Assembly (NCBI RefSeq): GCF_000745455.1 | Contig: NZ_JQJI01000023.1 | Coordinates: 1 to 38,606 of the forward strand | Length of the DNA: 38,606 nucleotides | Direction: 5' to 3' | Source: Mesoaciditoga lauensis cd-1655R = DSM 25116 | Lineage (GTDB): Bacteria > Thermotogota > Thermotogae > Mesoaciditogales > Mesoaciditogaceae | Shown here: positions 19,630 to 26,675 of the stretch, in pieces | Position numbering within the stretch: position 1 is the first letter of the stretch | How the letters are laid out: each line of letters opens with the position of its first letter | Program-made: the position numbers and the translations under genes | Notes under the pieces: generated by a model | Told to the model about the DNA's origin: nothing | The model's input: only the letters and a program-made list of their open reading frames with translations | Database searches by the model: none

Positions 19630-20778
19630 ATGATCCCTTACAAATTGAAGATGTATTCTTATTTCACTTTTTTTGCTTTTGGTTTTTACGTTGTAATACT
19701 TTCAAGCGCCTTTCCGAAAGTTTTGGAAGATCTTTCCATTAATTATTTGTATGGTGGTTACCTTTTTCTTTTCGGAACACTTGGGTATGTTGTAGGTTCG
19801 GCACTGTGCGCCCTTTTTGCACATAAGATGGGATTGAAGCTGATAGCACAACTTGGTGCGTTTTTACTTTTAATAGGATCGTTAGGGTACGTCATAAGTG
19901 ATGATTTCGTTAAAATTGCTTTTTCTGGTTTTATTGCAAATGCAGGCACTGGCTTGATAGAAGTCGGAGTGGGTTCTCTTATAGGGACGATAAAAAAGGA
20001 AAAGGCGGCCAGGTTGCTCAATCACGTGAATACATTCTTCGCTCTTGGAGCACTTGTTGGACCTTTTGTGGTTTCGTTTTTCATTCATTGGTCGTTGGGA
20101 TGGAGAAGTGTTTACATATTGGAAGCACTTATCGCATTGACTGCTTTTCTCTTTTCGATTAAAATGGAAAAGCCTGTAATTACATTGGAAGAAAAATTCG
20201 ACTTCAAATCGATATTGGATCCAAAAATCATCATTCTAAACCTCCTTATAATGATATATGTTGGATATGAGGTTGGATTCTCAGCTTGGGTAAGTACTTT
20301 CCTCGTTCACGCAAGAGGTATAAATGTTTCTTCAGCAGCAGCTATAGCCGCCATTTTTTGGATGGGAATGTTTCTCGGAAGGTACGGAGCAAGCTATGTA
20401 AAAATGGAGGAAAAGAGATGGCTTATGCTAATAACCGTTTTTTCTTTAACAAGCGTTGTTGCTTTTATGCTTTCCATAAATTTGTATGTTGCGATGACTT
20501 TCATATTCTTAAGCGGATTGGGCTTTGCAAGTACTTACCCCACTATACAAGCTATGCTTGCAAATTACGCTGAAGGGAAAGTTGGAAATCTCATGGGAAT
20601 GTTTGTAGTTTTTGTTGGGATAGGTGCATCGTTGTCAGAGTGGATGGTAGGTGGTATTTCGAACATGCAAGGAATATTTTATGGATTTACCGTCGTACCA
20701 GCATTGATATGTGCAGAAATACTGCTGGTTATTTTTTCTGGAAAGCTCATACGTGCAAAAAGGAGTGAATATTTATGA
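19630..20778 (+). CDS. MFS transporter, substrate unknown
   Basis: This 382-aa protein is a major facilitator superfamily permease with about twelve membrane segments in two halves, a Gly-rich helix pattern (GTLGYVVGSALCALFAHKMGLK, matching the MFS loop 2-3 motif in degenerate form) and a helix-5 motif region (NTFFALGALVGPFVVSF). A GAGGTG box precedes the ATG. Its last bases overlap the start of the antioxidant fusion gene (ATGA), so the two are one operon. That link could point to a sulfur amino acid or its oxidised form as substrate, but this is guesswork. Confidence 0.85.
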   Translation: MIPYKLKMYSYFTFFAFGFYVVILSSAFPKVLEDLSINYLYGGYLFLFGTLGYVVGSALCALFAHKMGLKLIAQLGAFLLLIGSLGYVISDDFVKIAFSGFIANAGTGLIEVGVGSLIGTIKKEKAARLLNHVNTFFALGALVGPFVVSFFIHWSLGWRSVYILEALIALTAFLFSIKMEKPVITLEEKFDFKSILDPKIIILNLLIMIYVGYEVGFSAWVSTFLVHARGINVSSAAAIAAIFWMGMFLGRYGASYVKMEEKRWLMLITVFSLTSVVAFMLSINLYVAMTFIFLSGLGFASTYPTIQAMLANYAEGKVGNLMGMFVVFVGIGASLSEWMVGGISNMQGIFYGFTVVPALICAEILLVIFSGKLIRAKRSEYL

Positions 20779-21566
20779 AAAAAAAGGTGGATGAATTCAA
20801 GAAAGAACGAGAGCATCTAAACGAAATCGTAATGAAGTATGCGAAAAAACATATAAAAAGATTCTACAACTTGGATACGAATGTTTATCTGGATGGTGCT
20901 TTGCCCAGAAAAATCAAAGAGCTGTTGGGACTTGTCTCATCGCTTGTCCTAAGATGTGATGACTGCATTGAGTATCATCTTATAACATCACACGAAAATG
21001 GTGTAACTTCAGCTGAAATAGAAGAGGCGCTTTCGATAGGATTGATCGTTGGAGGCTCCATAGTTATTCCGCATTTAAGGAGAGCGTTTGAAATATGGGA
21101 TGAATTGGAAGAAAAAAAGATGAAGGAATTGTTGGAAGAAATCGAAAGCATTCTGAACTCTTCAAAAGAAAAAGATAAAAAACTTAAAAGTGTATGTGAA
21201 TTTTTAAAAACCAATGTCGAACATTATGATTGGGTAGGTTTTTACATAGTCAACTCAACTGAAAACGAACTCATTCTTGGTCCCTTTGTTGGAGAAGAGA
21301 CTGAACATGTTAAAATCAAATTTGGGGAAGGCATTTGTGGCCAAGCTGCTGAGAGAGAAAACCTCTTCATAGTTCAAGATGTCTCGAAAGAGAGCAACTA
21401 TCTTTCTTGCAGCCCTAAAGTTAAATCGGAAATTGTCGTTCCAATTTTTAAAAACGAAAAGGTTATAGGTGAATTGGATATAGATTCTCACAAAACTGAA
21501 CCTTTCACCCAATGGGATGAAGAATTTCTTTCAAAGGTATGTGAAATGGTTGGACAAATCCTTTAA
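20775..21566 (+). CDS. AhpD-like (CMD) domain fused to free methionine-(R)-sulfoxide reductase
   Basis: This 263-aa protein has two domains. The N-terminal part (about 15-112) is a carboxymuconolactone decarboxylase/AhpD-like helical domain with the redox motif Cys61-X-X-Cys64-X3-His68. A charged helix links it to the C-terminal GAF domain (about 130-263), which has the free-Met-R-sulfoxide reductase signatures WVGFYIV, LGPFVGE, GEGICGQ, LSCSPKVKSEIVVPI and GELDIDS. Of the three enzyme cysteines (Cys84, 94, 118 in E. coli), Cys188 and Cys212 match the last two, while the first is replaced by His178. The AhpD-like Cys pair may supply the missing resolving or reducing function. The domains are recognised from family knowledge; the cooperation is inferred. 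Confidence 0.85.
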   Translation: MKKKVDEFKKEREHLNEIVMKYAKKHIKRFYNLDTNVYLDGALPRKIKELLGLVSSLVLRCDDCIEYHLITSHENGVTSAEIEEALSIGLIVGGSIVIPHLRRAFEIWDELEEKKMKELLEEIESILNSSKEKDKKLKSVCEFLKTNVEHYDWVGFYIVNSTENELILGPFVGEETEHVKIKFGEGICGQAAERENLFIVQDVSKESNYLSCSPKVKSEIVVPIFKNEKVIGELDIDSHKTEPFTQWDEEFLSKVCEMVGQIL

Positions 21567-23038: not shown

Positions 23039-23911
23039 ATGAGAATAGCTTTGGTGGATGCGGGAAGCAATTCTTTCATTTTGCTTATCGCTGAAAAGAA
23101 AGATGGAAAGGTAAATTATCTTCTGGATCTTTCCACCATCGTTGGAATGGGAAAGATGAAGTGTGAAGATGATGGCATTTTTGAAAAAGCGCTCAAAACT
23201 ACAGAAAAATACTTGAGAATAAGTGAAGAATATGGCGTGAGCAAACGCATTATTGTAGGAACAGAAGTTTTTCGAAAGTTGCCTTCAAAGTACTTTGAAA
23301 AATTGTCCGAAAAATTCGATAGTGCACGCATACTTTCGGGAAAAGAAGAAGCAGAACTTTCTTACCTTTCTGTAGCTGACGATGAGAAAATTCCAATTCA
23401 TTCACCGTTGGTTATGGATATCGGTGGAGGAAGCGTGGAATACTCTTTTAAAATCGAAAAAGGATTGATCTCACGAAGCATTCCGATGGGCGCCATAGTG
23501 TTAACTGAAAAATATGTACGTTCTTATCCTGTCCATGATCAACTGGAAAATGCGAAAAAATTCATAGAAAAAGAACTTTCTTTTCTTCCACAACTTCCAT
23601 TGGTTTCTATTGGCGGAACAGGTACAACCGTTGCGAGTGTCTTGAAAGGCAAACCGTTTTCAGCAAGTTTGATTCATGGAATTTACATATCCATAAATGA
23701 GATCGAATCACTTTACAAGCGTGTATGTTCCATGTCTTTAAATGAAGTTTCTAATCTTCCTGGTATGGAAAAAGGAAGGGAAAAGGTGATAGCAGCAGGC
23801 ATGCTAATTCTTTTGGAAAGCGCCAAAATGTCATCGAACAGAGGAATTTATATATCGATTAGGGGTCATCGGTACGCAATGGCAAAGAAAATCTTGGAGA
23901 GTGGCATATGA
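23039..23911 (+). CDS. Ppx/GppA-family phosphatase
   Basis: This 290-aa protein has the ASKHA fold of exopolyphosphatase and pppGpp phosphohydrolase: phosphate-1 motif IALVDAGSNSFILLIAE (near residue 3-19), phosphate-2 VMDIGGGSVEYS and the IGGTGTTVASV segment. It has only the two catalytic subdomains and lacks the extra C-terminal HD domain of long Ppx proteins. Substrate (polyphosphate or pppGpp) cannot be told apart. Its end overlaps the next gene by ATGA. Its own start is 6 bases past the lipoprotein stop without a strong ribosome binding site. Confidence 0.9.
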   Translation: MRIALVDAGSNSFILLIAEKKDGKVNYLLDLSTIVGMGKMKCEDDGIFEKALKTTEKYLRISEEYGVSKRIIVGTEVFRKLPSKYFEKLSEKFDSARILSGKEEAELSYLSVADDEKIPIHSPLVMDIGGGSVEYSFKIEKGLISRSIPMGAIVLTEKYVRSYPVHDQLENAKKFIEKELSFLPQLPLVSIGGTGTTVASVLKGKPFSASLIHGIYISINEIESLYKRVCSMSLNEVSNLPGMEKGREKVIAAGMLILLESAKMSSNRGIYISIRGHRYAMAKKILESGI

Positions 23912-25053
23912 TAATAGTCTATCTGAAAAAGAGAGGCGCGGAAAAGGTTCAAAGAGGGCACCTTTGGATATACGAAGATGAGATAAAAAGCGTTGATTCA
24001 GATGAAGAAGTCGGAATCGCGAATATCTTTTTCGAAGATGAATTTATGGGAAGAGGGCTTTACAATCTGAGAGCGAATCCTCGTCTAAAACTTTTAACCA
24101 GAAAATACGAGGAGATAAACGAAGAATTCTTCGTTAGAAGGTTCCAATCAGCTTTAAAAAGGAGAAGCAGCCTTCTTACCTCTTTTAGAAGAGAGTTCAA
24201 TGCAGAGGGAGATCTAATTCCATCGCTTATCATCGACAGGTTTGCCGATACACTGGTAGTTCAAATAAGATCGAAGGCTCTTGAAAAGATGAAAGAAGAC
24301 ATGATAAACGCCATGGTAAAAGTATATGCTCCCATGACCATTTACGAAAGAAGCGACTTTGAGTCGATGCCAGAACCAGGCCTTTCTCGTGAAAAAGGGG
24401 TGCTTTACGGTCTTTATCCAACCGAAAAAACATTGGAGGAAGATAAATTAAAGTTCAAGGTAAACATAGTCAAAGGCCAGAAAACTGGCTTTTTTTACGA
24501 TCAAAGAGAATCAAGGACATTTGCAAAAAAGGTGGCAGTTAAAGGTGGAAAAGCTCTTGATCTTTTCACCTATACAGGAGGGTTTGCCATTTCGTTGGCT
24601 TCAGAAGGCATGAAAGTCGATGCCGTTGACATATCTAAGGAGGACCTCCAACTCGCCTCTGAAAATGCGAAACTGAACAAGGTCAAGGTGAATTTCATCT
24701 GTCAAGATGCTTTCAACCTGAACGGATTGGAAATGTACGATCTCATCATTGCAGATCCACCTTCGTTGATAAAGAACCGCTCTCAAAAACCTAAGGCTTT
24801 TGAGCTACTCAAAACGTTGATGGATCAAATAATAGATCATCTGAACGAAAATGGGAAGTTCAGCATTTGTTCTTGCGCTTACAACATAGACGAAGAAATG
24901 TTGAAAAAGATCGTGTTGAGAAGTGCAACGGAAAAGAAGAAAGTTGTAAGGTTGATAAATTGGACTGGCTTGCCTTTAGATCATCCTCATCTTTTGTCGA
25001 TGCCAGAAACGAATTATCTGAAATGTCTATGGGGAGAAATATTTAACTTTTGA
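23908..25053 (+). CDS. rlmI: RlmI-like 23S rRNA (cytosine-5) methyltransferase
   Basis: This 381-aa protein has an N-terminal PUA domain (about 1-75, with RGHLWIYEDEIKS), a middle domain, and a Rossmann SAM-dependent methyltransferase. Motifs are GQKTGFFYDQRESR, LDLFTYTGGFAISLA (SAM binding), ADPPSLI (the DPP motif) and the catalytic CSCAYN. This is the YccW/RlmI architecture, which methylates cytosine in 23S rRNA. The precise target base is inferred. The ATG overlaps the Ppx/GppA stop. The 144 bases to def hold a weak hairpin near 25093-25122 and the def promoter. Confidence 0.9.
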   Translation: MIIVYLKKRGAEKVQRGHLWIYEDEIKSVDSDEEVGIANIFFEDEFMGRGLYNLRANPRLKLLTRKYEEINEEFFVRRFQSALKRRSSLLTSFRREFNAEGDLIPSLIIDRFADTLVVQIRSKALEKMKEDMINAMVKVYAPMTIYERSDFESMPEPGLSREKGVLYGLYPTEKTLEEDKLKFKVNIVKGQKTGFFYDQRESRTFAKKVAVKGGKALDLFTYTGGFAISLASEGMKVDAVDISKEDLQLASENAKLNKVKVNFICQDAFNLNGLEMYDLIIADPPSLIKNRSQKPKAFELLKTLMDQIIDHLNENGKFSICSCAYNIDEEMLKKIVLRSATEKKKVVRLINWTGLPLDHPHLLSMPETNYLKCLWGEIFNF

Positions 25054-25170
25054 ACTGAAATTCAGTTGTGTGAAAGATATGTCTTGAAACCCCGCTAGCA
25101 AAAATTCACTCTTTTTTTAGCAAAGGCCTCACAAAGAAAACAGATGTTCTATAATTTTGAAAAGATCACA

Positions 25171-25179
25171 TGATATAAT
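25171..25179 (+). promoter_or_regulatory. extended -10 promoter of the def operon
   Basis: TGATATAAT is a perfect -10 with a TGn extension, 18 bases before the def ATG, so the leader is very short. No clear -35 lies 17 bases upstream. Confidence 0.55.
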
Positions 25180-25197
25180 TCGCATGAGGTGATTTGA

Positions 25198-25722
25198 ATG
25201 CTCATCAGGTTGTATGGAGATCCTGTCCTCAGAAAAGTCGCGAAGGAGATAGATCCAACATCGTTGAAAGATGAATTTATAAAAGAAATGGCAAATACTA
25301 TGTACGTGGAAGATGGCGTAGGTTTAGCCGCTCCCCAGATAGGTATTTCTGAAAGGTTTTTTCTTTACGATGTTGGGGAAAAGTTGCACTTGATCATAAA
25401 CCCACAAATATTGGAAATGTCTCCGGAAAAAGAAGAAGGAGAGGAAGGCTGTTTAAGTATTCCTGATATTTTTGAAGAGGTTCCTAGATCGTTGAAAATA
25501 AGGGTAAAGTATTACGATAATTTCGGAAAAGAATACACACGAGAGCTCGAAGGATACGAAGCAAGGGTTTTTCAACATGAGTTCGATCACTTGAACGGCA
25601 AGCTTTTCATCGATTATATAAGCCCTGTAAAGAAAAGATTGTTAAAGCAAAAACTGAACGACATCAAAAAGAAAAGCGCTGAGATACTTAAAGAAATAGA
25701 AAAAACAGCCGCTCGCAAATAA
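25198..25722 (+). CDS. def: peptide deformylase
   Basis: This 174-aa metalloenzyme removes the formyl group from nascent protein N-termini. All three family motifs are present: GVGLAAPQIG (40-49), EEGCLSIP with metal ligand Cys85, and QHEFDHLNG with ligands His127 and His131 and catalytic Glu128. The Lys-rich C-terminal helix fits ribosome binding. A GAGGTG box precedes the ATG. It is paired with fmt, its partner in the formylation cycle, with a hairpin terminator lying across its own stop codon. Confidence 0.97.
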   Translation: MLIRLYGDPVLRKVAKEIDPTSLKDEFIKEMANTMYVEDGVGLAAPQIGISERFFLYDVGEKLHLIINPQILEMSPEKEEGEEGCLSIPDIFEEVPRSLKIRVKYYDNFGKEYTRELEGYEARVFQHEFDHLNGKLFIDYISPVKKRLLKQKLNDIKKKSAEILKEIEKTAARK

Positions 25723-25734
25723 CGAGCGGTTTTT
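25709..25734 (+). terminator. terminator or attenuator across the def stop codon
   Basis: CCGCTCG (25709-25715) pairs with CGAGCGG (25723-25729) and is followed by TTTTTC. The stem includes the last codons of def, and the TAA is in the loop. fmt starts 26 bases later with no promoter that I can see, so read-through must feed it. Confidence 0.7.
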
Positions 25735-25754
25735 CATCTAATGGAGGTGTACTA

Positions 25755-26675
25755 ATGAAAGTTTTGTTTTTAGGTTCTGCACAATTCGCAGTAGAAACTT
25801 TGAAATATCTTTCCAAAGCTCACGAAATCCCACTTGTCATAAGCCAACCATCACGGCCAGCTGGAAGAAGCAGGAAACTCAAACCTACTCCGGTTTCGCA
25901 ATTTGCCGTTGAACACGATCTTCCCTTGTTGGAAACGGAAAACGTAAATTCTCAGGAGATTTTGGAAAAAATAGAAGAAATGAAGCCGGATGTTGCCATA
26001 GTGGTAGCTTTTGGACAACTTCTTAAAAAAGAATTGCTGGCAAGCGTGGGACGTGGCTTTTTCAACGTCCACGCGTCCATTTTACCCAAATATCGTGGGG
26101 CAGCCCCCATACAAAGAGCTCTTTTAGATGGAGTGACTCAAACCGGCGTTACGCTTTTCAAAATAGATGAAGGAATGGATACAGGCGATATAGCACTTGT
26201 CGAAAAGACGACTGTCGATCCGTTTGAAACTTTTGATAGCCTTTATGAAAGGCTGGCAAAGATGGGAGCCTCACTTGTTGAAAGATTTCTTTCAAATCCA
26301 GATATCCCTTTAACACCCCAAACTGGTGAAGCGTCTAAAGCCCCCAAAATATCCATACAAGAAACTTTTATAGATTGGAATCAACCGGCGGAAATTGTCG
26401 CAAATAAGATACGCGCATTTGACTCCACGCCGGCAGCACGTGCCAAATTAAAGGGAGAAGTGGTAAAACTCTTTGGGGTGAAGGGAATTTCAATGACAGG
26501 CAAGGGAAAACCAGGTCAAATAGTCAGCATTCGTGGCCATGCGCTGATCGCTTGTAGTGAAGGAGGCGTGATGGTGGAAAGGATTCAATTCCCTTCAAAG
26601 AAGGTGATCACGTTTAGTGATGCGGAGAACGGTCATAAGCTTTCTCGCGGTATTTCTTTCGATCCTTGCTGTTGA
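25755..26675 (+). CDS. fmt: methionyl-tRNA formyltransferase
   Basis: This 306-aa enzyme formylates initiator Met-tRNA. The N-terminal formyltransferase domain has the catalytic HASILPKYRGAAPIQRA segment (with the N-V-H core) and GMDTGD. The C-terminal anticodon/acceptor-binding domain contains IDWNQPAEIVANKIRAFDSTPAARA. GGAGGT precedes the ATG. The C-terminus overlaps the start of the next gene by 59 bases in a different frame, which is long. The tail (LSRGISFDPCC) still aligns with the usual family end, so the frame looks intact. Confidence 0.96.
   Translation: MKVLFLGSAQFAVETLKYLSKAHEIPLVISQPSRPAGRSRKLKPTPVSQFAVEHDLPLLETENVNSQEILEKIEEMKPDVAIVVAFGQLLKKELLASVGRGFFNVHASILPKYRGAAPIQRALLDGVTQTGVTLFKIDEGMDTGDIALVEKTTVDPFETFDSLYERLAKMGASLVERFLSNPDIPLTPQTGEASKAPKISIQETFIDWNQPAEIVANKIRAFDSTPAARAKLKGEVVKLFGVKGISMTGKGKPGQIVSIRGHALIACSEGGVMVERIQFPSKKVITFSDAENGHKLSRGISFDPCC

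Follow-up and report, generated by a model that had tools for sequence, protein, structure and literature searches.

How is a methionine repair enzyme without a resolving cysteine of its own returned to its reduced state? The question is raised by a gene in a 38,606-nucleotide stretch of DNA from the heat-loving bacterium Mesoaciditoga lauensis (in the following, the window, i.e. the whole stretch analysed). In its product, a sulfoxide reductase and a CxxC redox domain are joined in one chain. A preliminary description, made from the letters alone, had proposed an AhpD-like N-terminus and a free methionine-R-sulfoxide reductase (fRMsr) C-terminus. Pfam, phmmer and fold matches agree with this domain pair, and the residues then pointed out (Cys61, Cys64, His68, His178, Cys188 and Cys212) are all numbered correctly in the translated open reading frame (Table 1). 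The best-supported reading of the fusion is that the AhpD-like domain serves as a built-in reducing partner of the reductase.

Table 1. Features of the fusion gene and its upstream neighbour (positions of the window)
Feature	Position	Strand	Evidence
MFS transporter gene	19630..20778	+	MFS_1 4.3e-29; 4-base overlap with fusion start
CMD(AhpD-like)-fRMsr fusion gene	20775..21566	+	ATG start, 263 aa; intact orthologues known
N-terminal AhpD-like CMD domain, residues 1-115, TM1620 type	20775..21119	+	Pfam CMD 1.6e-13 (residues 29-106); 1vke 4.7e-31 (residues 7-115)
Glu49, counterpart of AhpD proton-relay Glu	20919..20921	+	12 residues before first Cys; 36/36 linked loci
C61-D62-D63-C64 redox motif	20955..20966	+	C61, D63, C64 each 36/36 linked loci
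His68 of CxxC-x3-H	20976..20978	+	36/36 linked loci
Residues 95-129, one long domain-joining helix, predicted (codons)	21057..21161	+	AlphaFold2 model m60baa32a31c0
C-terminal type II free Met-R-sulfoxide reductase domain, residues 116-263	21120..21563	+	GAF 9.3e-12 (Pfam, residues 152-262); 4mmn 7.4e-28
Cys141, extra cysteine kept in linked fRMsr domains	21195..21197	+	residue count across loci
His178, at place of resolving Cys of three-cysteine fRMsr	21306..21308	+	His in 201/201 scored domains
Cys188 (T. acidophilum Cys60)	21336..21338	+	phmmer alignment; 201/201 scored domains
Cys212 (T. acidophilum Cys84, catalytic)	21408..21410	+	alignment; 201/201; role reported in excerpt of PMC6211008

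An assembly accident does not explain the fusion, as 6 of 103 Thermotogota and 5 of 54 Caldisericota genomes carry it in intact form. An AlphaFold2 model of the full-length protein consists of two domains (pTM 0.80); loop 207-213 has a pLDDT below 50. In a VIA-align run on the fusion, coverage by at least 1/5 of the rows is confined to residues 110-263.

The N-terminal domain is above the cut-off of both Pfam CMD and TIGR00778, and its closest structures are those of TM1620, 1vke by sequence and both 1vke and 1p8c by fold. The CxxC-x3-His redox centre ascribed to it earlier was found as C61-x2-C64-x3-H68 and, together with Glu49, Asp63 and Tyr67, is invariant in all 36 linked loci (33 with fused or adjacent genes and 3 pairs 1.2 to 4.1 kb apart). 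In AhpD, the relay is reported to consist of Glu118, Cys130, His132, Cys133 and His137, with a Tyr at the middle place in PA0269 (excerpt of PMC3141380). Asp63 stands at this middle place, where other AhpDs have His or Tyr. For this reason the domain is named AhpD-like and not an AhpD peroxidase.

The C-terminal domain appears from alignment and residues to be a type II fRMsr of the Thermoplasma acidophilum kind. By phmmer, it matches T. acidophilum Ta0848 (4mmn, a structure deposited under the name of type II free Met-R-sulfoxide reductase) at 3.3e-27; Cys188 and Cys212 pair with Cys60 and Cys84, and His178 with a His. When the domain was modelled alone (AlphaFold2 model m1b39984d5937, pLDDT 93.7), Foldseek ranked 4mmn first (rmsd 1.0 A over 130 columns). 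The E. coli fRMsr entry 1vhm is also among the sequence matches, and His178, Cys188 and Cys212 presumably correspond to E. coli Cys84, Cys94 and Cys118. In an alignment with the Staphylococcus aureus fRMsr (3ksf), His178 faces the Cys of 'PACVHI'.

The preliminary description had pointed out that the first cysteine is missing. The replacement itself is a fact, but His, Cys and Cys occupy the three positions in 201 of 201 distinct fRMsr domains scored. This means, His178 is a mark of the whole subfamily and no change accompanying the fusion. The set of 201 comprises the collected fRMsr-like loci minus duplicate records and five odd rows: two broken frames (L162, an adjacent pair in G212, and L292) and three GAF domains without the cysteines (L224, L225 and L227). 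L121 to L130 were kept outside the scoring; of these, L121-L128 and L130 are longer versions of loci collected before, and L129, which encodes a GGDEF protein, was viewed separately. An expected split into linked His-type and unlinked Cys-type enzymes was not seen, as all 201 are His-type, a uniformity that is neutral as to whether AhpD replaces the resolving cysteine. Unlinked type II domains carry the same three residues as linked ones, so that nothing at these positions marks dependence on AhpD. Cys141, absent from the earlier residue list, is conserved in 11/11 fused, 21/22 adjacent and 65/165 unlinked fRMsr domains. Its counterpart by alignment is T. acidophilum Cys15, which is reported to be unimportant (excerpt of PMC6211008).

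For the T. acidophilum enzyme, Cys84 has been described as the nucleophile and Cys60 as needed, yet forming no disulfide, unlike the bacterial and yeast fRMsrs with their intrachain disulfide (PMC6211008). The same paper reports that type II fRMsr has no resolving cysteine, proposes resolution by a separate thiol and describes activity of the T. acidophilum enzyme with Trx/TrxR in vitro. Because type II fRMsr is thus reported to need an outside thiol, a fused CxxC domain is a sensible reducing partner.

The same domain order was searched for in other genomes, as had been suggested, and the fusion was found in 11 of them, 6 Thermotogota (among 103 genomes, 2 more of which have separate adjacent genes) and 5 Caldisericota (among 54). 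Among 201 distinct fRMsr loci, 11 are fused to AhpD and 22 adjacent to it (less than 400 bases apart on the same strand), the adjacent genes mostly overlapping or lying within about 35 bases. AhpD is upstream in 33 of these 33 loci. All 33 fall in one 90-member fRMsr clade (support 0.88) and none among the other 111 domains (Fisher 6e-14, relatedness ignored). Linkage is a property of one fRMsr clade in some phyla. Fusions occupy several separate places of the fRMsr tree, and since its deep supports are low, it is uncertain how often a fusion arose.

In many of the genomes searched in Thermoplasmatota and in phyla picked irrespective of linkage, 6 candidates per genome were scored. Among the matches listed for 389 Thermoplasmatota genomes, 26 have both genes, and by hand count 8 of these 26 have them within 2 kb (chance about 1e-15 under random positions); adjacent genes are present in 14 of 132 genomes of the phylum of a Zixibacteria MAG. 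The high-linkage phyla had been picked after a linked locus was found in them. Two phyla were picked irrespective of linkage. For that of an Anaerolineae MAG (400 genomes) and that of a Jordarchaeia MAG (227 genomes), adjacency was found in 0/3 and 0/10, respectively, of the genomes with both genes among the matches listed. In the latter phylum, 3 genomes have both genes within 5 kb on opposite strands. That the two pieces stay together across several distant microbes is a hint that the AhpD-like piece helps to recharge the repair enzyme.

Several borderline loci were decided individually. L061 (Chitinivibrionales) was dropped as a fusion, its next gene not being an fRMsr. G596 and G588 score as adjacent instead of fused; the G596 translation has a stop between the genes. 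G581, where fRMsr begins at the contig end, was counted as unlinked. In the acidobacterial G109, a possible fRMsr begins after AhpD but is truncated by contig ends, and the complete fRMsr copy was counted as unlinked. Among viral contigs, 32 pattern matches yielded 0 confirmed cases.

The pairing is not strict. A hand count over the 103 Thermotogota genomes, which are related and not independent, gave 72 with both genes, 5 with AhpD only, 17 with fRMsr only and 9 with neither. Hence, a TM1620-type AhpD is missing in 17 of 89 fRMsr-positive genomes, and AhpD is not obligatory for fRMsr.

In the family of the window, the gene order is MFS transporter, fusion (or AhpD then fRMsr), a lipoprotein gene in some genomes, Ppx/GppA and RlmI, followed by def-like and fmt-like ORFs, as judged by eye. 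An ORF similar to the MFS gene in start and size lies upstream in G001, G003, G004, G008 and G006; the MFS profile match comes from the window protein alone. Past the fusion, at 23039-26675, the window itself contains Ppx/GppA-like and RlmI-like genes as well as two ORFs that correspond in position to the relatives' def-like and fmt-like ORFs. With equal gene order, the site that holds the fusion in 3 genomes of genera g1 and g3 holds separate, adjacent genes in 2 genomes of genus g4. In G006, which belongs to the split-gene genus, AhpD is missing between MFS and fRMsr (L128:160-1761, minus strand), and no TM1620-type AhpD was found elsewhere in this genome. G006 has MsrA and MsrB; in its congeners G004 and G008, AhpD is present while both Msr are missing.

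The genome of the window has an MsrA match and no match for MsrB. Within the families searched, the fusion is therefore the one R-sulfoxide reductase recognised in this genome. A general tie between MsrB loss and linkage was considered and rejected: In family f1, MsrB is present in 0/5 linked and 5/5 unlinked genomes, but the fused G011, G017 and G023 (family f3) have MsrB.

In 5/5 Caldisericota genomes with the fusion, it is flanked by a rubrerythrin gene on one side and a flavodiiron gene on the other, with a flavin reductase gene coming next; at L041 the cluster also includes rubredoxin. Flavin-reductase genes were found no more than 2 kb away in 5/5 Caldisericota and 5 other linked genomes versus 0/107 unlinked loci, a comparison that covers 28 linked records with larger flanks (one a duplicate genome) and is biased by queries taken from linked loci. 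G002 lacks a TM1620-type AhpD; there, an AhpC/TSA peroxiredoxin gene overlaps fRMsr by 4 bases (L419:4406-5319, minus strand).

Other fRMsr architectures were encountered as well. In G036, a protein of 778 aa (L129:1982-4318, minus strand) combines a type II fRMsr domain with intact His/Cys/Cys and, after it, a GGDEF diguanylate cyclase domain; it is possibly a Met-sulfoxide-linked c-di-GMP enzyme. Open frames of 778-786 aa with fRMsr occur in G022, G034, G036, G084, G085, G086, G089, G090 and G091 (two Thermotogota genera); the domain scan covered that of G036, where it identified GGDEF. Most Thermotogota fRMsr frames of 303-374 aa have an extra N-terminal domain of about 170 aa (e.g. L016:1036-1944 and L010:1039-1965). 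In these two, it matches no Pfam family above cut-off, and for that of L016 a PDB sequence search up to E 1 gave no match. In genome G019, DUF1667 and a type II fRMsr domain form a single fused chain (L130:3259-4101, plus strand), and two genes upstream resemble FAD-dependent oxidoreductases by eye.

The reading of the fusion as a two-module repair enzyme, whose AhpD-like CxxC resolves and recharges the type II fRMsr, is the simplest one that takes in all the facts and in our judgement narrowly probable. Cys212 would attack free Met-R-sulfoxide, release Met and end as sulfenic acid. As the fRMsr domain has no resolving cysteine, the sulfenate would be resolved by a thiol of the AhpD-like domain, either fused or, in relatives, separately encoded. 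The Cys61/Cys64 pair would turn into a disulfide, to be re-reduced by a general cellular reductant via a thioredoxin, dihydrolipoyl or rubredoxin/flavin route. The two domains, their residues and fold and the repeated pairing are observed, and the need for an outside thiol is taken from the literature; that the AhpD-like CxxC is this thiol, and where the electrons come from, is what we infer. The idea of a built-in reducing partner gains from the recurrent pairing and the invariant redox residues and loses from AhpD not being obligatory. That the enzyme is 'self-contained', as had also been proposed, is unlikely, since the AhpD CxxC must itself be re-reduced.

The reducing-partner reading is favoured by the intact AhpD redox residues in all linked loci and by fusion or adjacency of the pair in more than one phylum, with AhpD always upstream, the genes close or overlapping and the fRMsrs all in one clade. 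Proximity in Thermoplasmatota, the Caldisericota cluster, split genes in g4 versus fused genes in g1 and g3, and MsrB not being matched in the genome of the window point in the same direction. It is weakened by the absence of AhpD from 17 of 89 fRMsr-positive Thermotogota genomes (including G006), the same three residues in unlinked type II domains, the choice of high-linkage phyla after a linked locus had been found, the lack of adjacency in the Anaerolineae-MAG and Jordarchaeia-MAG phyla, the Trx/TrxR activity of the T. acidophilum fRMsr in vitro, the peroxiredoxin neighbour in G002 and the low pLDDT of loop 207-213.

Part of this evidence can be read as parallel defence: The AhpD-like domain would be an independent weak peroxidase, the fusion would co-produce two oxidant defences, and thioredoxin or another cellular thiol would recycle fRMsr. 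An AhpD-like protein is reported to reduce H2O2 (excerpt of PMC3141380), and the rubrerythrin, flavodiiron and flavin-reductase neighbours in Caldisericota, along with flavin-reductase genes in some others, would suit such a role. The fRMsrs without AhpD and the G002 peroxiredoxin in AhpD's place, which is not expected to serve as reductant, are consistent with a less strict coupling between peroxide removal and repair. However, the fixed AhpD-fRMsr order and repeated true fusion exceed what co-expression calls for, Asp63 instead of His/Tyr in the relay may weaken peroxidase activity, and the source of the resolving thiol is left unexplained. We regard parallel defence as possible, if rather doubtful.

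Two other roles for the N-terminal domain leave its cysteines idle or turn it into a target. As a scaffold, a hexameric CMD ring would carry or stabilise the fRMsr domains without using its cysteines in fRMsr catalysis. AhpD-like proteins are described as mostly hexamers (excerpt of PMC3141380), the TM1620 PDB entries hold 6 chains each, and one continuous predicted helix may join the two domains. Invariant Cys61, Cys64, His68 and Glu49 are at odds with this, and separate adjacent genes would obtain no scaffold benefit, which makes a scaffold improbable. Still less credible, to the point of being very improbable, is a sensor, in which Met-sulfoxide bound to the GAF/fRMsr domain would control the activity of the AhpD domain or of some other partner. 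The same type II domain does accompany a GGDEF domain in G036 with its residues intact, but by Pfam the window protein has no output domain, and its reductase residues are fully conserved.

No description of an AhpD-fRMsr fusion was found in titles and abstracts of the open-access literature searched, a scope in which a subscription paper may be missed; in the available part of PMC2673044, the two families appear only as separate entries of a reference set. Ta0848 (4mmn/4mn7) is the nearest relative of the C-terminal domain, being the best match in sequence and fold with His at the resolving place and two Cys kept. In contrast to the fusion, it is a stand-alone chain of 149 residues without an AhpD domain. 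Type II fRMsr has been left with an unnamed thiol donor, and a fused or co-encoded CxxC partner names a candidate. TM1620 of T. maritima (1vke, 1p8c) shares 52-57% identity with the N-terminal domain in fold alignments and the same CDDC-x3-H, but is a separate single-domain protein, for which the matched entries give no tested function.

PilB of Neisseria meningitidis (N-terminal redoxin-MsrA-MsrB) likewise combines a sulfoxide reductase and a built-in disulfide reductase in one chain, and its redoxin domain is reported to reduce its MSRB domain intramolecularly (excerpt of PMC6210582). PilB is periplasmic and uses a TlpA/Trx-fold redoxin with MsrA/MsrB, whereas the window protein consists of an all-helical CMD and a GAF-type free Met-R-O reductase. 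The fusion is not a PilB member; at most, it may work like PilB. In the AhpC/AhpD system of Mycobacterium tuberculosis, AhpD is a CxxC adaptor for a thiol enzyme with the same Glu/Cys/Cys/His spacing (excerpt of PMC3141380). There, the client is a peroxiredoxin, and His132 takes the place of Asp63. If the reducing-partner reading is true, the clients of AhpD-like proteins widen from peroxiredoxins to methionine repair.
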